DNA of 25,605 nt from a virus. The stretch spans positions 1 through 25,605 of IMG/VR virus record IMGVR_UViG_3300047409_000339; one strand, written 5' to 3'. Below are positions 9,057-19,000 of this stretch, in pieces (within the stretch, counting starts at the first letter, position 1; every line of letters begins with the position of its first letter). The notes under the pieces were generated by a model. It saw nothing but the letters and a program-made list of their open reading frames with translations. It made no database searches and was not told the origin of the DNA. The translations under genes were made by a program, and so were the position numbers.

Positions 9057-10202
9057 TTGGGCCACCTCTATCAGCCGAGACCCGGCGGCGTGTGGATGAT
9101 GCAGTACGTCGGCAGCCACGGCCGACGCGTCCGTGAATCCACGGAGACCGACAACGAGAAGAAGGCCGCGAAGATCCTAGCCGCCAAGGAAACCGATCGG
9201 GATCGGGGCCTGCCTGTCGCCGCGGGCATCGGGAAGATCCGCTGGGAAGAAGCCGTCGATCTGATCCGCGCGGACTACGCCAACAACGATCAGACGTCGT
9301 GGGTCAATCAGGAGCGTCGGATTCGGCGGCACCTGGCGCCGGTCTTCGGCGGCCAGCGGCTGGCCGAGATCCAGCCGGATGCCTTTCTGCTCTATGCCAC
9401 GACCCGACGCGAGGCGGGCGCCACCGCCGCCAGCGTGAACCGGGAACTCGCGATTGTGCGGCGGATGTTCGTGTTGGCGATGCAGGCGGGCAAGCTGCTG
9501 TTTCGGCCACATATCCCCCGCCTGCGGGAGCGGAATGCGCGCGCCGGGTTCTTCGAGCGGGCGACCTTCGAGAGTGTGTATGCACACTTGCCCGAGGCCT
9601 TGCAACCGGTCGTGATGTTTGCCTATCTGACCGGCTGGCGGATCGACAGCGAAGTCTTGACGCGCGAATGGCGGCACGTCGATCTCGATGCCAACGAAAT
9701 CCGGTTGGACCCCGGCGAAACCAAGAACGGCGAGCCGCGCGTGTTCCCGTTAACCGACGAGCTCCGCGCCCTGCTCCTCGAGCGCCAGGCCGCACGCGAG
9801 GCCGCGGCGGCCGCCGGCTATGTCTGCCCCTGGGTCTTCTTTCGGCTCGTCGCGAAGGGTCGGGGCGGGAAGAAGTATCCCAAGCCGATCATCCGCTTCA
9901 ATAAAGCCTGGGCGGCCGCCTGCGCAGCCGCGGGGTGTCCTGGACGGATCCCACACGACCTTCGCCGCACGGCCGTCCGGAACATGGTCCGGAGCGGCGT
10001 GCCCGAACGCGTCGCGATGCAGCTCGCCGGGCACCTCACCCGATCGGTCTTCGAACGGTACAACATCGTGAGTCCGGGGGACCTCATGGACGCCCGCGCG
10101 AAGCTGGAAGGCCAGATGTCGGCCACGGCGAATAAACAGCAAAGCCACACAATGAGCCACACGGGGCCGATATTCGGCGGTCGCCGCGACTCGAACTCGT
10201 GA
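9057..10202 (+). CDS. int: Tyrosine-recombinase phage integrase
   Basis: 381 aa from TTG at 9057, with a GGAGGG ribosome binding site 8-13 bases upstream and the previous stop three bases before. Domains: an N-terminal arm-binding segment (about 1-50, GHLYQPRPGGVWMMQYVG), a core-binding domain (about 60-165) and a catalytic domain. Catalytic residues are all visible: R195 (TGWRIDSE), K223 (TKNGEPR), H300 and R303 (HDLRR), H326 (LAGHL) and Y335 (FERYNI). It joins attP to the host attB, and with an excisionase removes the phage. The gene ends 15 bases before a tRNA-Cys 3' sequence, and its last codons overlap two putative arm-type repeats. Very confident. Confidence 0.97.
   Translation: MGHLYQPRPGGVWMMQYVGSHGRRVRESTETDNEKKAAKILAAKETDRDRGLPVAAGIGKIRWEEAVDLIRADYANNDQTSWVNQERRIRRHLAPVFGGQRLAEIQPDAFLLYATTRREAGATAASVNRELAIVRRMFVLAMQAGKLLFRPHIPRLRERNARAGFFERATFESVYAHLPEALQPVVMFAYLTGWRIDSEVLTREWRHVDLDANEIRLDPGETKNGEPRVFPLTDELRALLLERQAAREAAAAAGYVCPWVFFRLVAKGRGGKKYPKPIIRFNKAWAAACAAAGCPGRIPHDLRRTAVRNMVRSGVPERVAMQLAGHLTRSVFERYNIVSPGDLMDARAKLEGQMSATANKQQSHTMSHTGPIFGGRRDSNS
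10143..10162 (+). repeat. Left arm-type repeats (AGCCACAC x2)
   Basis: AGCCACAC occurs at 10143-10150 and 10155-10162, start-to-start 12 bases, inside the last codons of the integrase gene. The same octamer in the same orientation recurs on the other side of the tRNA fragment. Phased direct repeats flanking the core are the form expected for integrase arm sites. Confidence 0.55.
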
Positions 10203-10217
10203 AAACGTTAGGAAATT

Positions 10218-10266
10218 TGGAGGCGCCGCCCGGATTTGAACCGGGGGTGGAGGTTTTGCAGTCCTC
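10218..10266 (-). other. attP core: 3' part of a tRNA-Cys gene
   Basis: On the minus strand this reads as the anticodon arm to the CCA end of tRNA-Cys: anticodon stem-loop 10266-10250 with anticodon GCA at 10259-10257, a perfect T-arm at 10245-10229, acceptor 3' strand 10228-10222, discriminator U at 10221 and CCA at 10220-10218. The 5' half (acceptor 5' strand GGCGCCG and D-arm) is absent upstream, so this is not a whole gene. Phages that integrate in tRNA genes carry just such a 3' piece to restore the gene after insertion. The anticodon stem has one A-A mismatch, possibly marking divergence from the host copy. Confidence 0.8.
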
Positions 10267-10364
10267 ACAAGAACCACCGAAACGAGTCATATTTCAGCGA
10301 TTTTGCTCAATGTTTTGCGCGATTCGTGAAATCTGGCGATTCCTGGAGTCACCATAGAAACCCA

Positions 10365-10384
10365 CGGTTTTCCTAACAAAACCG
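10365..10384. repeat. Hairpin in the attP region
   Basis: CGGTTTT at 10365-10371 and AAAACCG at 10378-10384 form a perfect 7-bp stem with a 6-base loop. A T-run follows at 10393-10398, so weak terminator activity on the plus strand is possible. The loop side TTTTCCTAAC is also the inverse of GTTAGGAAA at 10207-10215 beside the core, so it may instead be a protein site. Confidence 0.35.
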
Positions 10385-10403
10385 CGTGTCACTTTTTTAC
10401 TCC

Positions 10404-10434
10404 AGCCACACAAAAAGCCACACGCGAGCCACAC
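10404..10434 (+). repeat. Right arm-type repeats (AGCCACAC x3)
   Basis: AGCCACAC at 10404-10411, 10416-10423 and 10427-10434, spaced 12 and 11 bases start to start, about one helical turn. The orientation is the same as in the two left copies. Together with the core they give a two-plus-three arm arrangement around an att core, as in attP sites of lambda-type integrases. Confidence 0.55.
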
Positions 10435-10451
10435 AGACTTCGGATAGAAGT

Positions 10452-10796
10452 ATGCCCATGAAGCAATGTCGATTCTGCGCGGAAGAGATCCAAGACGCCG
10501 CGATAGTTTGTAAGCACTGCGGCCGCGACCTCGTCCCGCCGCGTCTACATCCCTTCTGGCGATTGGCGGGCTACGGACTGCTCATCGCCGCCGTGTTCCT
10601 CATCGTCTCGTTCGTCTCCTTCTACTTCGGTGAAGACAATCGGCAGCACCAGGCCTACGTGGCCGCGCGTGAGGCGTGGCACCGCAAGTGCTACAGCCCT
10701 ATTGAACCGGAGGGGATCACGCCAGAAATGCGGGCCTGCGCCGACGAACTGCGCGCGCTGAATGCCTCCGCGAGACGCCACGGGTGGGACCGATAA
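10452..10796 (+). CDS. Zinc-ribbon membrane protein, probable cargo gene
   Basis: 114 aa from ATG at 10452 (a second ATG two codons on). Residues about 5-26 hold two CxxC pairs (CRFC and CKHC) in a zinc-ribbon of the kind common in bacterial chromosomes. A membrane segment follows at about 37-60 (LAGYGLLIAAVFLIVSFVSF), then a soluble C-terminal tail containing two more Cys. It is separate from the structural operon, convergent with it, and lies just beyond the right att arm. After integration it would sit at the far end of the prophage, a usual place for lysogenic cargo. The gene may have come from a bacterial host. Function unknown. Confidence 0.7.
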   Translation: MPMKQCRFCAEEIQDAAIVCKHCGRDLVPPRLHPFWRLAGYGLLIAAVFLIVSFVSFYFGEDNRQHQAYVAAREAWHRKCYSPIEPEGITPEMRACADELRALNASARRHGWDR

Positions 10797-10813
10797 ATTC
10801 TCCTCTACTGCAT

Positions 10814-10900
10814 TCATCGGGAACACCAGGACGCGAGCAGGAGTAAGACGGCCAGGCCGAGTAACGGCCACGGGTCAAACCCCTGACGCTCCCTAGCCAT
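10814..10900 (-). CDS. Possible single-membrane-segment peptide (28 aa)
   Basis: 28 aa: short charged N-terminus (MARERQGFDPWP), then a hydrophobic run (LLGLAVLLLLASW) and CSR at the end. It overlaps the end of the preceding 20-aa frame and is the last frame of the structural operon. Size and single hydrophobic helix allow a membrane peptide, perhaps tied to the lipoprotein or to lysis, but with no family evidence it is tentative. Confidence 0.35.
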   Translation of the reverse strand: MARERQGFDPWPLLGLAVLLLLASWCSR

Positions 10901-10958
10901 CCGCGGTCAAAGTCGGCGGCCCCTCGTCGCGCACACGCCCCAGCGGGCTGTCGGGCAT
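10893..10958 (-). CDS. Very short coupled frame (21 aa)
   Basis: The ATG shares one base with the stop of the lipoprotein gene (TGATG), the coupling signal used elsewhere in the operon. The frame ends in TAG after 21 codons. The length is too short to judge and it may only pass ribosomes on to the next small frame. Confidence 0.25.
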   Translation of the reverse strand: MPDSPLGRVRDEGPPTLTADG

Positions 10959-12577
10959 CAATGCACCGTCGGCGCGGGCAGCGCGGGCAGCGCCGTGCGC
11001 GTAAACGGATTGCTCGGGCCACTCGCCGGGCTGACCCCCGTCGCGCCCGTCGCGCGCACGGTGAGCGTGTAGCCGCTCCCCGGGGCCACGCCCTGCACCA
11101 GCGCGGTGATCGGCAGCGCGCACTGCGACCCCGCGCGATCCGGATCGGTCACGCGCGCCTCGGTCGGATTCGTGACCGCGCCCGGCGGCGCCAGCGGCGC
11201 CAGCGCGCACGCGGCGGCGCTGTGCAGCAGATGCGTCGTCCCCACCGGCGGGCCGGTCGGCGGCGGCGTGGCCGCGGCCCAGACGGCCACATCCCACCCG
11301 ACGACGACGGAGGGCGGCGGCGCCGTCGACATTTCATACGCGCCGAGATCCGCCGCGCTGCCCTGCGGCCGCGCCGTGCCCGCGCGATCGGTCGGGACGG
11401 CCGCGACGGGCGTGCCCGTGTCGATCGCCGGACTCCCCGGCTGGAGCTGGAAGTCGGCGCCGGCGGGATTCACGAAGAGGGGATCGGGGCCTTCCAGATT
11501 GTGGTCGTGCGTCGTCCCGCTGCCCATGTCGAGATAGTTGGCGCCGCTCGACTGGTGGACGATGTTGTTCTGAAGGACCGTCCCGGTGACGCCCGCCCCG
11601 ACGAGGACCCCGGTGTTGCGGTTATTGGTGACGGTGTTGTGCCAGACCTTCGTGTTCGTCCCCGCCACGGTGATCGCCCCGAGATTCTGATTGCCGGCGG
11701 TCCCGACGGCAATCCCCGTGATGACGTTGTTGACAATCGAATTGTCGACGCCGTAGACCAGCACCCCCCACGCCTCATCGGGCGTCCCGGATCGCGTCAG
11801 GTCGTGAAAGTAGTTGTTCCGGATGATGTTGTGGTCGGGCGAATCGCCGCTGCCGTTGTAAATCTGGATGAACGCGCCTGAGGTGTCGTAAATCTCGCAG
11901 TGCTCGACGAGATTGTTCGGCCCGGAGATGTACACGCCGTAGGAGGCGCACTGATAGCCGCACTGCCCCGGATCGCCCCCCCCGTGAATGACGAGGTTGA
12001 TCAGCTCGAAGCCCCCGGTCGCCTGCAGGACGACATGCGCGCCGAGCGCAAACGCGCCGCTCGCGTAGGCGCCCGCCCCCGCGATGCATTCGGCGTTTTT
12101 GTAGCGAATGTGGTGCACGTCGTGATAGTTCTGTGTCGACAAGCTGACGCAGGGCTGGTGGCTCGGCCGGCCGTCGAGGTTGAGGCCATCGAACTCGATG
12201 TAGTGGTAGTCCCCATCGAGCCAGATCACATGCTGGCCGGCGGTCGTGTGCCCGCTCGCGGGCGTCAGCCAGACCGTCTCGCCCGGCGCCGCCGCGACCC
12301 GCTCCGTCTGCGCCCAGGACGTGCCCGACGGCACCGCGGTGATGACCTCGTCGTAGGTGCCCGCGCGGACGAGCAGCGTATCCCCCGCCACGAGACACGC
12401 GATCCCCGCGGTGATCGTGCGCTTCGGCGTCGCGGCCGTCTGCGCCGTGCCGCACGCGCGCGCATCGTCGCCCGCTGGCGCCACGTAGTACGTCGTCGCG
12501 GCGTGCGGCGTGACGCGGCACGCCGCGAGGGCGGCCAGGCCGCCGAGGGCCGCGGCCAGGAGCCGCCGGCGGATCAT
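10958..12577 (-). CDS. Parallel beta-helix lipoprotein
   Basis: 539 aa. N-terminus MIRRRLLAAALGGLAALAAC is a lipoprotein signal peptide with lipobox LAAC and modified C20; Arg at +2 suggests outer-membrane sorting in a Gram-negative cell. Residues 29-80 (YYVAPAGDDARACG, then GDTLLVRAGTYDE) start a right-handed beta-helix of the pectate-lyase-like type, with coils rich in N-x-I/V patterns (NNLVEHCEIYD, NNVITGIAVGTAGNQ, NNNIVH-type turns) to about residue 390, then a DLGAYE end. Residues about 405-539 look like a fibronectin III-type domain. No catalytic residues can be assigned. It is coupled by ATGA to the previous gene at the end of the tail operon. A virion protein would not need a lipobox, so host-surface modification in infected cells is plausible. 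Confidence 0.8.
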   Translation of the reverse strand: MIRRRLLAAALGGLAALAACRVTPHAATTYYVAPAGDDARACGTAQTAATPKRTITAGIACLVAGDTLLVRAGTYDEVITAVPSGTSWAQTERVAAAPGETVWLTPASGHTTAGQHVIWLDGDYHYIEFDGLNLDGRPSHQPCVSLSTQNYHDVHHIRYKNAECIAGAGAYASGAFALGAHVVLQATGGFELINLVIHGGGDPGQCGYQCASYGVYISGPNNLVEHCEIYDTSGAFIQIYNGSGDSPDHNIIRNNYFHDLTRSGTPDEAWGVLVYGVDNSIVNNVITGIAVGTAGNQNLGAITVAGTNTKVWHNTVTNNRNTGVLVGAGVTGTVLQNNIVHQSSGANYLDMGSGTTHDHNLEGPDPLFVNPAGADFQLQPGSPAIDTGTPVAAVPTDRAGTARPQGSAADLGAYEMSTAPPPSVVVGWDVAVWAAATPPPTGPPVGTTHLLHSAAACALAPLAPPGAVTNPTEARVTDPDRAGSQCALPITALVQGVAPGSGYTLTVRATGATGVSPASGPSNPFTRTALPALPAPTVH

Positions 12578-13179
12578 GGCGTCGCCCCGAGCGGCGGCAG
12601 CCCGTACTCGGCGCGAAATTCGTTCGTGTGCTTCTCGAGACAGGCCGCCCAGCCCATCAGGGCGACGTAATAATCGTACGCCGTCCGCGCACTGTGGACG
12701 CTGATCATGCCGGGGTCGATCGGGGCGCCGCACTCGGCATACGTCTCGTTGCAGACGGTGCCGAACTGCACGGCCTTGTCGTCCTCGAACGCGACGCCGT
12801 CCCACACATCGCTCCCGTCGCCCGCATCCCCGCACGGCGTCCACACCCACGCCGGATTGTTCGCCGGCCCGTGGACGTCCCAACTCGCGCCCGTGCCCGT
12901 CATCACGTCGATCGTGACCGTGCCGGGGCGCCACACCATGACGTCGCAGGGGATCTTCCCGTTCTGGTCGGTCTTGGTGAGCACGCCCCAATTCCCGCCG
13001 TCCTCGGGATGATCGGCGTTGATCGTCGGCACCATCGTCTCGGTCAGGAGCTTGAGGCGCGCGGGGTCGTTCGCGTCGCCGGGCGGGAAGGCTTCCGGGT
13101 GCGCCGCGCAGATGGCCTCCACGTCGGCGAAGCGGTTCGGGACGAGCGCTTGTGGGGTGGGGGCTGTCGGTTGGGTCAT
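12574..13179 (-). CDS. Hypothetical late protein (201 aa)
   Basis: 201 aa, starting ATG at 13179 overlapping the previous stop (ATGA) and ending in an ATGA with the lipoprotein gene. The central part (about 65-130) is beta-rich with Trp and Gly: GGNWGVLTKTDQNGKIPCDV, then VTIDVMTGTGASWDVHG. Several Cys (about C77, C121, C150, C156, C186) might form disulphides outside the cell. I have the impression of a recurring late-phage protein type, possibly tail-associated or a hydrolase, but cannot name it. Confidence 0.65.
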   Translation of the reverse strand: MTQPTAPTPQALVPNRFADVEAICAAHPEAFPPGDANDPARLKLLTETMVPTINADHPEDGGNWGVLTKTDQNGKIPCDVMVWRPGTVTIDVMTGTGASWDVHGPANNPAWVWTPCGDAGDGSDVWDGVAFEDDKAVQFGTVCNETYAECGAPIDPGMISVHSARTAYDYYVALMGWAACLEKHTNEFRAEYGLPPLGATP

Positions 13180-14537
13180 CGTCTCACGCCTCTCCTCGCG
13201 CGGCTGGTCCGAGCGCGTGCTGCCCGGGCCGCCGCCGGACCGCAGCCATACACATGAATCAGGGGCGCGTCCCCATCGCCGCGCGTCTGCGCGACGAAGA
13301 CGCGGTGCGTGTCTGGGTCGTAGCCCGCGCCCGACAACCGCGGGAGCCACGAGTAGAAATCGCTGCCGAGCGTCCACGCGGCATACGGCACGACGTCCCA
13401 CGGCGCGCGTGTGCCCGCCGCGACGAGCGCGAGCTCCGCGGCGTCATACGCCCAGACGCGCGCGTCGTAGGGGTAGGCGTGATCGCCTTTGGTGGGATTC
13501 ACGGGGTCGTACGCGTAGTACACGCCGGGTTCGCCCGGCACCTCGTGCCCGTCGAGCGCGGGGTCGGGCGTGCCCATGCCGTACGAATAGATCCCCACGC
13601 CGATCACCCCGAAAAACAGCACGGCGCGCGTGCCGACCGGCTGCACGACGCCGCCGATTTGCATGGTGCCGTTGAAGAGGATGTTGGGATTCGGTTCGCC
13701 GGGGCCGATCGTGTAATTGCCGAGGGTCGGATGACTCCCCGGATAGAACAGGAGCGGCGTCGTCGGCACCGGAGACACGCGCCCGATGTCGTCCGGGTCG
13801 AACGCGAACACGCCCGGGCCGAGACTCGTTCGACTCACGATCGGGATGCCAGAGTTGCCCGTGAAACACACGCCACGAAACGCCTCCTGCCACTCCGGCG
13901 CGATGGCGCCCAGGTAGCCGCTGACGTTCCCCGCGTGGACGCTGGCCGTCTCCGTCGCGTCCGTCACGAGCAGTTGCACCGGGCCGACGTATTCCCCACT
14001 CGGCGTCAGGTTCACGCTCCGCGCCCAATGTGAGACCGGTTGATCGCCGTTCGCGTCATAGTGCCGATACACCGTGACGATTAGCCGCTCGTGATGCACA
14101 TGGCAGCCGCCCAGGTTGATCGCCGCGCCATACGCGAGCGCGGCCCAGCTGCCTTCGGTGGGGTCTTGAATCGGCTGGATCTCGGCCGCGCGGTGCAGCT
14201 CGCCCAGTGTGGTCGCGCCCGCGATCGGCGGCGGGATCGAGATCTCGCCGAGGCCGTGGTAGTCCGCGAAGCCCGCGAGGACCAGCGAGTCGTGCGCCGC
14301 GTAATACGCCAGCCCCTTCGGCGGGAAGTCGTAGCGCACCGGATACGCCGGCACGCGGAAGCAGCCCTGATACAGCAAGTCGGTCGGGTAGATCAGCCCC
14401 GCATCGGCGTCGGGCGGGAGCGGCGCCGGTTCGCCACAGCCGGAGGGCGGCACCCACGGGTGCGACGGCTGCGCGCCCGCGTCGTCGTGCGCGTCCCAGG
14501 TCAGCATCCCTCGCAGCATGGCCGGCTTCGAAGGCAT
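13176..14537 (-). CDS. Large late protein, possibly beta-propeller-like (453 aa)
   Basis: 453 aa, rich in Gly, Pro, Tyr and Trp. Recurrent segments with a beta-blade look are seen, for example YAAHDSLVLAGFADYHG, HERLIVTVYRHYD, RAVLFFGVIGVGIYSYG, and DTHRVFVAQTRGDGDAPLIHVYG near the end; a spread of such strands is what a beta-propeller or similar binding protein shows. The C-terminus is Ala/Arg-rich. There is no signal peptide. In the operon it comes after the tail fibre, so receptor binding or another particle-surface role is likely. No family can be named. Confidence 0.65.
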   Translation of the reverse strand: MPSKPAMLRGMLTWDAHDDAGAQPSHPWVPPSGCGEPAPLPPDADAGLIYPTDLLYQGCFRVPAYPVRYDFPPKGLAYYAAHDSLVLAGFADYHGLGEISIPPPIAGATTLGELHRAAEIQPIQDPTEGSWAALAYGAAINLGGCHVHHERLIVTVYRHYDANGDQPVSHWARSVNLTPSGEYVGPVQLLVTDATETASVHAGNVSGYLGAIAPEWQEAFRGVCFTGNSGIPIVSRTSLGPGVFAFDPDDIGRVSPVPTTPLLFYPGSHPTLGNYTIGPGEPNPNILFNGTMQIGGVVQPVGTRAVLFFGVIGVGIYSYGMGTPDPALDGHEVPGEPGVYYAYDPVNPTKGDHAYPYDARVWAYDAAELALVAAGTRAPWDVVPYAAWTLGSDFYSWLPRLSGAGYDPDTHRVFVAQTRGDGDAPLIHVYGCGPAAARAARARTSRARRGVRR

Positions 14538-14546
14538 AAGTTCCTT

Positions 14547-14759
14547 TCAGTCGGGGACGGTGATCGTCAACGTGTCGTCGTCGAGGCTGAACGTCGGCGT
14601 CTGCGGGTCGAGGCCGAGCTCGGTCAAGGCCGTCGTTTGTTTGTGATGAGCCGTGGCGAGGGCCGCGCGGGCCTGCCCCGCGAGGACTTCGCAGCGCTGC
14701 GTGTCACTACAGAGCGCGCGGAGTTTCCAATACGTGGGGGCGTCGAGCGTGCGCGTCAT
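14547..14759 (-). CDS. Small late protein (70 aa)
   Basis: 70 aa. ATG overlaps the previous stop (ATGA). The N-terminal part is helical (YWKLRALCSDTQRCEVLAG) and the C-terminus is a short beta segment (TFSLDDDTLTITVPD). It could be a coiled-coil-containing accessory tail protein. Not recognised. Confidence 0.6.
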   Translation of the reverse strand: MTRTLDAPTYWKLRALCSDTQRCEVLAGQARAALATAHHKQTTALTELGLDPQTPTFSLDDDTLTITVPD

Positions 14760-15091
14760 CCGGTCACGCCGGCCAGTTTGTTCCAGTCGGTCATCAACTG
14801 ACTTTCCATGTCCGGATCGCCCGAGGCCGTCACCGTCGCGCCGACCTCGAAGTTGTAGGACGTCTCGAAGTTGAAGACGTTGGGTCGGTTCACGAACGAC
14901 GGCGCGAGCTGCTGTGCCGTCTGCAGAGGATTACTGTTCACGCGATTGGCGTACGCCACGCGTTCGGCGTGATACAGCGTCGATGGGTCTTCCTCGAGGA
15001 CTTCCCAGGCGATCCGGGTGACCGCATTTTGGAGCCGTTTATGAAACTGCGGATCGGCGGCAAGAGCTTGCTGCGTGAAGGCGTCATTCAT
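14756..15091 (-). CDS. Hypothetical late protein (111 aa)
   Basis: 111 aa with an AAAGGATG ribosome binding site before the ATG at 15091. The first half is helical (FHKRLQNAVTRIAWEVLEED and YANRVNSNPLQTAQQL), the second beta-like (VFNFETSYNFEVGATVTASGD). No domain recognised. It lies between the S74 fibre and a coupled small gene, in a region of tail accessories. Confidence 0.65.
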   Translation of the reverse strand: MNDAFTQQALAADPQFHKRLQNAVTRIAWEVLEEDPSTLYHAERVAYANRVNSNPLQTAQQLAPSFVNRPNVFNFETSYNFEVGATVTASGDPDMESQLMTDWNKLAGVTG

Positions 15092-15097
15092 CGCGGG

Positions 15098-16096
15098 TCA
15101 TCCTTTCAGGGTCGCGAGTTCGGCGCGGAGGGCGGCGAGCTCGGCGTCGTGGTGCTGCCATCCGGCGATCAGGTCGGGCACGAATTTGCTGTAGTCGGTC
15201 ATCCAGGGTAGCGCCAGGGTGCCGCTGTCGGTGCGATCGTCGGTCCCTTTCGAGACGGCCCGTGGATAGAGCGCGTGTGCCTCTTGCGCGAAGATACCCC
15301 GGTCGCGGATGCCGTCGGCCTTCCACGTGAAGTCATGCACGACCAGGGCGCGGAGTGCCGTCAGATCGACCGCGCGCCCGCCATCGTCTTTCAGCCGCGC
15401 ATCCGACGCCGTGTTATACGCGACGGTGGTGGCGCTCATCTGTTGAATCGTCCCGGCCGTGCCGAGCGCACTGTTGACGAACATGACGAAGTATCCCGCG
15501 TTGGCGGTGTAGAGATTTTGAATCACGAAGCCGTTGCGGACGCTCGCATCCCAGACCATGAAGACTTGCGCGTTCCCGCCATTCGTCGGCGTGTTGATCA
15601 CCACTTCCCCGGTGCCCAGGATTCGCGCCCGTTCCGCGTTGTTCGTATAGAACCGGAGCGGGGCGGCCGCCGAGGTCGCGAGTGAGAGGCCATTGGCGCC
15701 GACACCGAGGAGCGCGGAACCGTTCGGCATGTTGTAGCCGGACGGGGTGTAGGTGGACGAGAAGGCCGAGAGGACCGTGAGAAACGGGCTCGTATCGGTG
15801 CCGAGGAGTAGTTGGGCGGCGTTGCCCGTACCGGCGACCGTGTTCATGATTTGAATGGTATTGGTGCCGGCGCCCGACGCGACGAACGCATGGGTCCCGA
15901 GGCCGCTGACGGACAACAGACCCGCGATGACCTGATTGCCGGTGAAGCTGTTCCCGCCCGCGAGTTGCGCGACCTTGGCGAGCGCGCCGTCAATCTCGTT
16001 GTAAATCGAGGTCTTCACCGCGTTGTTGATCACGGTGCCGGTCGTCCCGGTGCCGTCGTCGTCGATCCAATTTGTGCGAACGATGGTGACGGCCAT
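15098..16096 (-). CDS. Tail fibre with S74 chaperone domain
   Basis: 332 aa, start sharing one base with the hub stop (TAATG). The N-terminal and central parts are beta-rich and Gly/Ala/Thr-rich, as in trimeric fibres. From about 228 the sequence TASDARLKDDGG matches the self-cleaving intramolecular chaperone (peptidase S74): the cut is before S231, with D232 and RGIFAQEAHALYP (266-278) and DYSKFVPDLIAGWQ (301-314) following. In the family the C-terminal piece helps fold the trimer and is then released. It most likely binds the host receptor. Confident. Confidence 0.88.
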   Translation of the reverse strand: MAVTIVRTNWIDDDGTGTTGTVINNAVKTSIYNEIDGALAKVAQLAGGNSFTGNQVIAGLLSVSGLGTHAFVASGAGTNTIQIMNTVAGTGNAAQLLLGTDTSPFLTVLSAFSSTYTPSGYNMPNGSALLGVGANGLSLATSAAAPLRFYTNNAERARILGTGEVVINTPTNGGNAQVFMVWDASVRNGFVIQNLYTANAGYFVMFVNSALGTAGTIQQMSATTVAYNTASDARLKDDGGRAVDLTALRALVVHDFTWKADGIRDRGIFAQEAHALYPRAVSKGTDDRTDSGTLALPWMTDYSKFVPDLIAGWQHHDAELAALRAELATLKG

Positions 16097-19000
16097 TAGA
16101 GCGCCCCTTGTCGCAAGAGTCGGAGCATTTCCTCCGCAGAGAAGCGGAGGCTCGAGGCTTCGACCGTGTAGGTCGGATTGAGGTGCGGCACGTTGAAGCG
16201 CGCCACACTCACGCGTTGGATCCGAAAGTCGCCGCGCAGATTGATCGGCGGGCCGAGATTGACCGTGACCATCGCGCCCGCCTGGGTATTGATGTCCCGA
16301 CACACGTAGGACACGGTAATCACGCCGACCTTCCCCTCGCTATCGAGCGCGCCGAGTAAATCGAGACGCGCCTGACAGCGGGCGACGCCTTCGGTGTAGG
16401 ACAGGCGGCCGTCTTGGATCTCGTCTTCGATGATGCCGTCGCTGCCGGGGAGCTGCGCGCGCACCGCGGCCTGGGCGTCGAGGTCGTCGACCTGCACGAA
16501 CACATTCACCGGGTCGCCTTTGAGAATCGGATACTTGATCACACCGACGCCATTGGCCGGAATCCCCGTCAGCATCGCGGCGGCGACCACGGTCGTGTTC
16601 CACGTGATCGTCGCGGTGATCGCGCCCGGCCCGCTCGGGGGAATGCCCAGCAAGGCGTTGCCGCTGATGCCGGTATAGCGGATGTTTTGCGAGCCGACGA
16701 TCGCCCAGCCGCCCGTCGGCCGAAACGCCGCGACGGTCGCGCACGGCAGCGTCGGTGATCCGGCCAGCACGTTCCCGGTGGGTTGTTGTAACAGCGAGGT
16801 GTCGCTGGTCGGGGCGTTCGCGCCGAGGGCCGCGTCGGCGACGACGTCGAGATACGTCGTCGTCGTGTTGTCGGCGAAGGTGACAAGCGCTTGGAGCTGA
16901 CTCACGTTCGCCTTCGTGCGGTAGAGCACACGCGCGATCACCGACGCGGCGCCGAGGGGAATCGCGCTCAGTTGCACTTGCGCGGCTTGCGCGGTGCCGA
17001 CGGTGAGCGCGGCGGCACCCAGGCTCGCATCGGGCACGGTGTCGAGAAAGTCGGTCGTGGTGTTGTCGCCGATCGTCGCGACGAGCTTCAGCGTGCCGCC
17101 GCCGGTATTCGCGGGCGTGCGATAGATTTTGCGCGCGGTCACCAAGGCATTCCCGAGCGGCAGCTTCGAGAGCGGAATTTGTCGGAGGACCGCGCCGTTG
17201 ACCGTCGGCGGGGCGGCGCCGAGGCTCGCGTTCGGCGTCGTGTCGGTGTACGTGCGTGTCGTGTTGTCTTGAATGACCGCGACGAGGCGCAAGCCGGCGC
17301 CGGCCGATCGGCGATAGAGCACGCGCCAGCCGCCGGCCCCATTCGCACCGGGGATCGTCGGAATGCCCGAGACGTGCACGGATTGATTGCCCCCGGTGGT
17401 CGTGTTCGACGCGGGAGGCCACGGGCCCCGGTTCGCATTGGGCATCGTGTCGGTGTAACTCGTCGTGGTGTTGTCGTTGAGGGTCGCGACGAGGCCCCAC
17501 GTGCCCGCGCTGTACCGATAGAGCTTGCGCGCGATGACGCCCGCGCCACTCGCGGCGGTCTGAATGCCTGAGAGATGCACCGTCGCCGCGAGTGTGCCGT
17601 TGACCGTCGGCGGCGCTGCTCCAAGACTGGCGTTCGCCGTCGAGTCGGTGTAGGTCGTCGTCGTGTTGTCCGCGATGGTCGCCAGCAGGCGCAAGCCCGC
17701 GCCGCCCGACTGGCGATAGAGCTTGCGCGCGGTGACAGAGCTATCGCCACTCGTCGGGAGATTCACGAGGTTCACGGTGTTGGCCGCGGGCCCGTGTCCC
17801 GGTCCGGGATAGAAACTGCTCGCGGGCATCCCGGCGACTTCGATCGTGACCGGCGAGGTCGACACCGACACCGATTGGAGCAAGGCCCACGGGCCGCCGT
17901 TGACGCTGACATAGAGTCTGGCCCCCGTGGCGCCGCCGACCACCGACGGCACCGTGACCGTGCGGCGGCAACAATTCGGCGCCCCCGAGAGCGCGGGTTG
18001 GATGGTTTGCGCGCCGGATGCGGGCCCCATGGGTGACTCGTCCACCCAGGTGCTTGGTTGGTTGGAATAGGTTTGGGCGTAGGACACGGTATCGCCCACC
18101 CGCCCGCTGTTGGCACCGGGCGAGGCGTTGCCTTGCGTCGGGTACTGCTGGCAGATCGGCCCGGTGCCCGGTGGTGAACAGGGCGGGCCGTTCGCGCCGG
18201 ACGTCGCGACCGGGCCGAGCGGCCCGGGTGTCGTTTCGCCCCCGCTCCGGACGAACGTACAGGCGTACGCGTGACTGCCGGTATCGACCGCGCCACCCGC
18301 GGCATACGAGCCCGCATTGGGCGCCGAGGCCGGCGGCGCGACGATCCCGGTCGTGACCGTTGCGCTCCAGGGGCTCGAGTCCGTCTCGCCTTCAGGCCGG
18401 ACGAACGTCGAGACATAGTTGTGTGGCCCGGGCTCCGGGCCGGGTCCGACCGACACCGATCCGGGATTGGGGGCGTTGGTCGGGGCGAGGATCCCGCCCG
18501 TGGTGATCTGTCCGCCAATCGGGCCCGGCGGCGTTTGGTCGCTCGACGCCGCCCAGAACGTGACGGCGTAGTCGTGCGCGCCGGGATCCGGACCAGGACC
18601 CGGATTCACGGCATCGGGATTGGGCCCGGTCGTTGGCGCCGGTAAGAGGTCCGTGCTCGCCGCCACCCGCGGGCCCGGTGTCGTTTCTCCGGTGCTGATC
18701 ACAAACGACACCGCGTAATCGTGCACGCCTTGATCGGGACCCGGGCCGGGACCAGCCGCGCCCGCCGTCGGCGCGGTCGAGGGCGCCAAAAAGACCCCGA
18801 CCGGCACCGTCAGCCGCGGCCCGACAACCGACTCCCCATTCACCGTCTTGAACGTGACCGCGTAGTCGTGCGATCCGACGTCCACGCCCGCCCCTGGGAG
18901 CAAGGACGGATTCGGCGCGCCCGTCGGTGCGGCTCCTGGTCCGACCAACGACCCGCCTCCGCCCGCATCGAGGCCGCCGTAGGTGACGCGCTGTTGCCCC

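Follow-up and report, generated by a model that had tools for sequence, protein, structure and literature searches.

The gene for the lipoprotein Llp of phage T5 lies adjacent to and downstream of pb5, and in other siphophages lipoproteins for superinfection exclusion have been inferred immediately after gpJ (PMC9586334). Rtp45 is also a superinfection-exclusion lipoprotein, and its gene lies beside receptor-binding genes (PMC12685063). The known lipoproteins of this type are about 6-8 kDa and plug an outer-membrane receptor from the periplasmic side (PMC9586334, PMC12685063). Two further groups of described proteins resemble the protein analyzed here: phage tailspikes and depolymerases that contain right-handed β-helices, and cellular choice-of-anchor Q β-helix proteins (NF041518), in which a signal is followed by a β-helix, an anchor-Q domain, and an FN3/Ig-like C-terminus. 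Export signals are not expected on virion proteins. One survey of phage hypervariable (DGR target) proteins cited the absence of such signals in favor of a phage origin (PMC6199706).

The window that we analyzed, a virus record from IMG/VR, has 25,605 bases and a GC content of 66%. The last gene of its minus-strand tail operon encodes a protein 539 aa long with a lipoprotein signal at the N-terminus followed by a β-helix (Table 1). A first-pass annotation had given the coordinates of this gene correctly and placed it at the end of the tail operon, as we also find, leaving the strand unstated. Out of six reading frames, only the minus frame of this gene shows coding-type codon usage, with a codon score (+0.36) and GC3 (0.90) that are the same as in the adjoining virion genes. 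Over 10958-12577 the plus-strand frame is interrupted by one stop, and its codon usage is anti-coding (score -0.40).

The protein begins MIRRR-LLAAALGGLAALA-AC and contains the lipobox L-A-A-C at residues 17-20, a canonical lipoprotein signal (MIRRRLLAAALGGLAALA-AC). The pattern that we required of a bacterial lipoprotein (Lgt/LspA substrate) was a positive n-region, a hydrophobic h-region, and a lipobox of the form [LVI][ASTVI][GAS]C, and MIRRRLLAAALGGLAALAAC has all three. A strict rule combining the lipobox with the hydrophobic core matched only 2 of 6,218 mechanical ORFs from the compared loci, both of them one real small lipoprotein gene present in two contigs, and residue shuffles of the window protein passed the strict lipobox rule at a frequency of 5.5e-5. 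Because matches are this rare in both ORFs and shuffles, the signal is not a chance occurrence, and the signal peptide and LAAC lipobox noted in the first-pass annotation hold up. The protein is predicted to be processed by LspA and anchored in the envelope of the cell, where it would face either the outside or the periplasm.

Table 1. Features of the window discussed in the text (positions in the window; residues are those of the lipoprotein).
Feature	Position	Strand	Basis or remark
Tyrosine-type integrase	9057..10202	+	Homologues in L048, L031, L040
attP core, 3' half of tRNA-Cys (GCA anticodon), 54 bases	10208..10261	-	98% identical 54-60 bases in L048, L031
β-helix lipoprotein gene, 539 aa	10958..12577	-	Stop 10958-10960; codon score 0.36, GC3 0.90; translation
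C-terminal FN3-like region, residues 418-539, sub-threshold	10961..11326	-	PDB matches, Pfam fn3
Choice-of-anchor Q domain, residues 374-416	11330..11458	-	NF041518 E=1.5e-14
Right-handed β-helix core, residues 182-358	11504..12034	-	PF13229 E=3.6e-8
Pectin-lyase-type N-cap, from about residue 28		-	Weak matches to PelN and GH120 xylosidase/PL9 lyase in PDB
Lipobox Cys20 (LAAC), predicted lipid-modified +1 residue	12518..12520	-	Sequence
Signal peptide, residues 1-19 (MIRRRLLAAALGGLAALAA)	12521..12577	-	Sequence; strict-rule and shuffle tests
g202, 201 aa, no family	12574..13179	-	ATGA overlaps on both sides
g453, 453 aa, variable tail-end gene	13176..14537	-	No family match
g70, conserved tail-end marker gene	14547..14759	-	Variable slot begins beyond g70
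g111, conserved tail-end marker gene	14756..15091	-	38 loci in IMG/VR
Tail fibre with C-terminal Peptidase_S74 (endosialidase chaperone) domain	15098..16105	-	PF13884 7.2e-8, phrog_5668 3e-13; start uncertain
Large tail protein (called J by position), 1266 aa	16096..19896	-	Conserved in phage group

The parallel β-helix is supported by Pfam PF13229 (33.6 bits against a gathering cut-off of 25.9). The choice-of-anchor Q domain, a feature missed in the first-pass annotation, scored 54 bits against a curated cut-off of 25. An FN3-like C-terminus had also been claimed; this is plausible but below threshold, with PDB matches to residues 418-539 that are mostly FN3 modules (best E=0.0011) and a Pfam fn3 E-value of 0.089. 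The PDB matches to PL9 and GH120 enzymes are weak and cover the N-cap only (E 0.0012 and 0.026), and neither a catalytic site nor a target glycan was identifiable in the protein. The claim of repeats was not sustained, as an array scan returned only trivial 7-9-base arrays and hydropathy autocorrelation of the protein gave p=0.70. The rungs of the β-helix are therefore irregular. Single-sequence AlphaFold2 gave no usable model (pLDDT 30), so the fold is assigned from profiles. The protein resembles phage tailspikes and depolymerases in fold class and genomic slot but differs in its N-terminal lipoprotein signal, which stands where no Pfam or PHROG tail match to a virion-attachment domain was found. 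It has the same domain order as the cellular NF041518 proteins and differs from them in being phage-encoded inside a tail operon and anchored by an N-terminal lipobox.

Read from right to left, the minus-strand operon contains head-tail genes, the tape measure gene, J, the S74 fibre gene, g111, g70, g453, g202, and the lipoprotein gene. Five genes thus separate the lipoprotein gene from that of the large tail protein, on the same strand and in the same block. There are two successive ATGA overlaps that join g453, g202, and the lipoprotein gene without a gap, making expression with the late operon the simplest reading. A scan of 10200-15200 for sigma-70 sites only found no promoter-like site, and the Shine-Dalgarno sequence ahead of the first ATG of the lipoprotein gene is weak. 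A search with a library of defence systems gave no match.

The attP core adjoins the integrase and is about 0.7 kb downstream of the lipoprotein gene. The same core is found at 12463-12522 in locus L048 and at 12978-13031 in locus L031, in each case beside a homologous integrase and between the integrase and the tail-end genes. This conservation indicates that the tRNA-Cys core is attP and that the phage is temperate. No intact tRNA was found in a tRNA search of the window, where Rfam gave only a sub-threshold tRNA-like match at attP. Phage genes flank attP on both sides in a lambda-like layout, with the tail operon ending near attP. Beside attP, on the opposite strand (10452-10796), is a gene for a small zinc-ribbon membrane-type protein with deviant codon usage (-0.10); homologues in L026 and L028 likewise have the tail-end genes on one flank and the integrase side on the other.

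This location raises the question of whether a host gene for a secreted lipoprotein was captured and serves in lysogenic conversion, giving the lysogen an altered surface, adhesion, or glycan degradation. Consistent with this are the short distance to attP, the anchor-Q domain, which NCBIfam naming assigns to cellular secreted proteins, and a secreted 230-aa protein of L004 (12264-12956, minus), encoded opposite to the tail module near that same end, its gene being itself a candidate for lysogenic conversion. By contrast, a moron is expected to have its own promoter and terminator and a deviant composition. The lipoprotein gene is ATGA-coupled to tail genes in the region where the sigma-70 scan found no promoter-like site, its codon usage is like that of the virion genes whereas the zinc-ribbon gene on the attP side deviates (0.36 vs -0.10), and a peptide-pattern scan of 84,980 species genomes found no close cellular relative. 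We regard capture of a host gene as an unlikely origin, though one that deserves consideration.

The conserved tail genes define a group of soil phages in IMG/VR, with J-like relatives at 19 loci and g111 relatives at 38, and the genes beyond g70 vary among them. Peptide-pattern scans of these sister phages and IMG/VR found no homologue of the window protein; since no sister phage has one, conservation of the signal cannot be shown. Five loci (L015, L016, L037, L038, and L039) carry signal-less β-helix proteins in this slot. One of the signal-less slot proteins was modelled as a β-helix (pTM 0.80), with polysaccharide lyases, polygalacturonases, and tailspikes as its best folds. The tail-end slot is a predicted receptor-binding-type slot, judging from these sequences and this model. 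Profile comparison detected no homology between the signal-less slot proteins and the window protein, making them analogues of position and fold only. Similarly, g453 could not be accepted as a relative of a 526-aa protein from sister phages; hhalign was not significant, despite one BLAST match. An enzyme-like slot protein, possibly a TIM-barrel hydrolase, occurs in L016 (13370-14338), L035 (10877-11857), L039 (10898-11839), and L019 (7283-9067), and the L016 copy had no family match.

Some sister phages have export signals in this part of the genome. In L040 the slot holds a gene (10330-12951) for a tail-fibre-like protein of 873 aa that begins with a Sec signal, L047 encodes a 253-aa tail-fibre-like protein with a Sec signal just ahead of g111 (303-1064), and in L041/L055 a gene for a 128-aa lipoprotein follows g111 directly (10377-10763). 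The last is a candidate spanin-like or exclusion lipoprotein. With the window excluded, 8 of 108 genes in the tail-end zone bear signals compared to 3 of 323 elsewhere (p=0.001), an enrichment that is suggestive only, as the zone takes in genes that probably function in lysis and two or more likely false positives.

Beyond the group, the only phage homologue found that covers most of the window protein is encoded by a Manatee Spring podovirus (MW202608.1; five near-identical records; 25.7% identity, E=1e-4). This 886-aa protein is the product of the last large gene of a structural block and aligns to window residues 28-421. It shares the β-helix N-cap and has a weak anchor-Q match, but it differs in having no signal peptide: its opening residues, MTTYYIAP, correspond to the window protein from residue 28 on. 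Proteins of this kind are therefore found with and without export. A relative without the signal had been named as grounds for rejecting the lipoprotein claim; a single remote phage homologue of this kind weakens the claim and does not refute it. The sole match in a plasmid search was to one Spirosoma protein, over the C-terminal anchor-Q part only, and no prophage with the large tail protein was found in the genomes scanned.

The start of the podovirus protein, together with the weak Shine-Dalgarno sequence before the first ATG, could mean that the signal is unused and that translation begins downstream, for instance at a GTG at Val32, yielding an ordinary cytoplasmic tail protein. We consider this very improbable. 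The first ATG is part of an ATGA overlap, as is typical for coupled starts, a start at GTG32 would drop the first β-strand motif (TTYYV), and chance would not preserve a perfect signal.

The podovirus homologue led our search to the Tunturi phages, plaque-isolated on Acidobacteriota. In Tunturi 1 (L061, PP887698; 10371-23028), five of six consecutive genes of the tail fibre/spike region have canonical Sec signals (gp12, gp13, gp14, gp16, and gp17), and Tunturi 2 (L069; 2910-15852) has the same pattern. Tunturi 4 (L062; 43652-47325) has Sec signals on gp113 ('tail protein') and gp114 ('virion structural protein'), while none was detected in the examined tail-region genes of Tunturi 3 and 5. The label 'virion structural' is annotation only, and we left it out as evidence of virion location. 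In gp12 of Tunturi 1 the signal is followed by a domain whose homologues form the very N-terminal ends of the tailspikes of Serratia MTx and E. coli ECO1230-10, and gp17 combines a choice-of-anchor Q domain with a weak β-helix match and a chitobiase/Fn3-associated C-terminal match. Like the window protein, gp17 of Tunturi 1 and 2 and gp114 of Tunturi 4 combine a Sec signal, an anchor-Q match, and an Ig-like or Fn3-associated C-terminus at the end of the tail block. They differ from it in having an ordinary Sec signal with no lipobox and otherwise unrelated sequence; a β-helix match occurs in gp17 only and is below the Pfam cut-off. Queries with Tunturi 4 gp114, the L040 protein, and Tunturi gp12 yielded no further IMG/VR relatives. 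The paper describing the Tunturi isolates makes no mention of signal peptides or virion proteomics, and we found no paper on tail fibres with Sec signals in the literature searched. Given the signal-less β-helices in the slot and the Sec signals on fibre and spike genes of soil phages, the earlier distinction that tailspikes have β-helices and not lipid anchors was drawn too sharply.

These observations open the possibility that the window protein is a virion tailspike with an export signal, which would be exported by Sec and be added to virions at lysis or later, or whose signal would have another N-terminal role. The signals on tail-region genes of three Tunturi phages, the tailspike N-terminal domain behind the signal of gp12, the two signal-bearing tail-fibre-like proteins of L040 and L047, and the tail-end enrichment all point this way. 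Tailed phages, however, assemble in the cytoplasm, searches of the window protein turned up no attachment domain, and a lipid anchor would keep it in the membrane; the enrichment itself is diluted by lysis-type genes and likely false positives. We find a virion location doubtful on balance.

We tentatively favor, with confidence somewhat short of even, a different role: an exported, lipid-anchored relative of tailspikes that is made late and acts on the envelope of the infected cell, most likely stopping re-adsorption. The protein of this temperate soil phage would be expressed late together with the tail proteins, and its β-helix would bind or trim the surface glycan recognized by the spike-type proteins of the phage itself. 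Neither the infected cell nor its debris would then go on adsorbing progeny and rival phages. We infer that the glycan-type fold acts on the cell's own surface and that the benefit lies in avoiding re-adsorption to cell or debris. Action at the infected cell's surface, one of the roles suggested in the first-pass annotation, is still the best reading; sugar uptake, another, is unsupported, with no transporter gene seen alongside.

In purpose and gene position such a protein would be like T5 Llp, and its means would be a tailspike-like glycan binder or enzyme versus a small receptor plug. The likeness to T5 Llp, Cor of T1/phi80, and Rtp45 lies in a phage lipoprotein gene downstream of tail-tip or receptor-binding genes and in a presumed action on the envelope. 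Exclusion is further favored by the lipoprotein gene directly after g111 in L041/L055 and by the documented exclusion lipoproteins beside RBP/gpJ genes. Against it, the window protein exceeds 50 kDa, compared to the periplasmic plugs of about 6-8 kDa, and late-only expression would give a lysogen little protection. With 539 residues and a fold of the glycan-enzyme type, it is outside the Llp/Cor/Rtp45 family, being far larger and of a different fold. A lipoprotein in a virion operon is thus less unusual than first thought, as lipoproteins near receptor-binding genes are a known theme, but the size and fold are unusual.

One explanation for the Sec-signal pattern on predicted tail-spike-type proteins of soil phages, which seems to us rather improbable and somewhat more so than either host-gene capture or a virion spike, is that some soil phages, notably those of Acidobacteriota, export their own receptor-binding proteins with Sec or lipoprotein signals. 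These proteins may cover the dying cell and act as decoys or blockers; alternatively, they may mature outside the cytoplasm and be loaded on virions at lysis. On this view the window gene would supply a lipid-anchored version. The Sec signals on fibre- and spike-type genes of cultivable soil phages are a more valuable result than the window gene itself. If the favored role of the window protein is true, superinfection exclusion would be widened from small receptor plugs to glycan-directed surface proteins. A tail operon with an exported, anchored spike-like protein and cultivable phages with Sec signals on tailspike genes make it testable whether receptor-binding folds are turned on the infected cell or part of the tail is assembled outside the cytoplasm.
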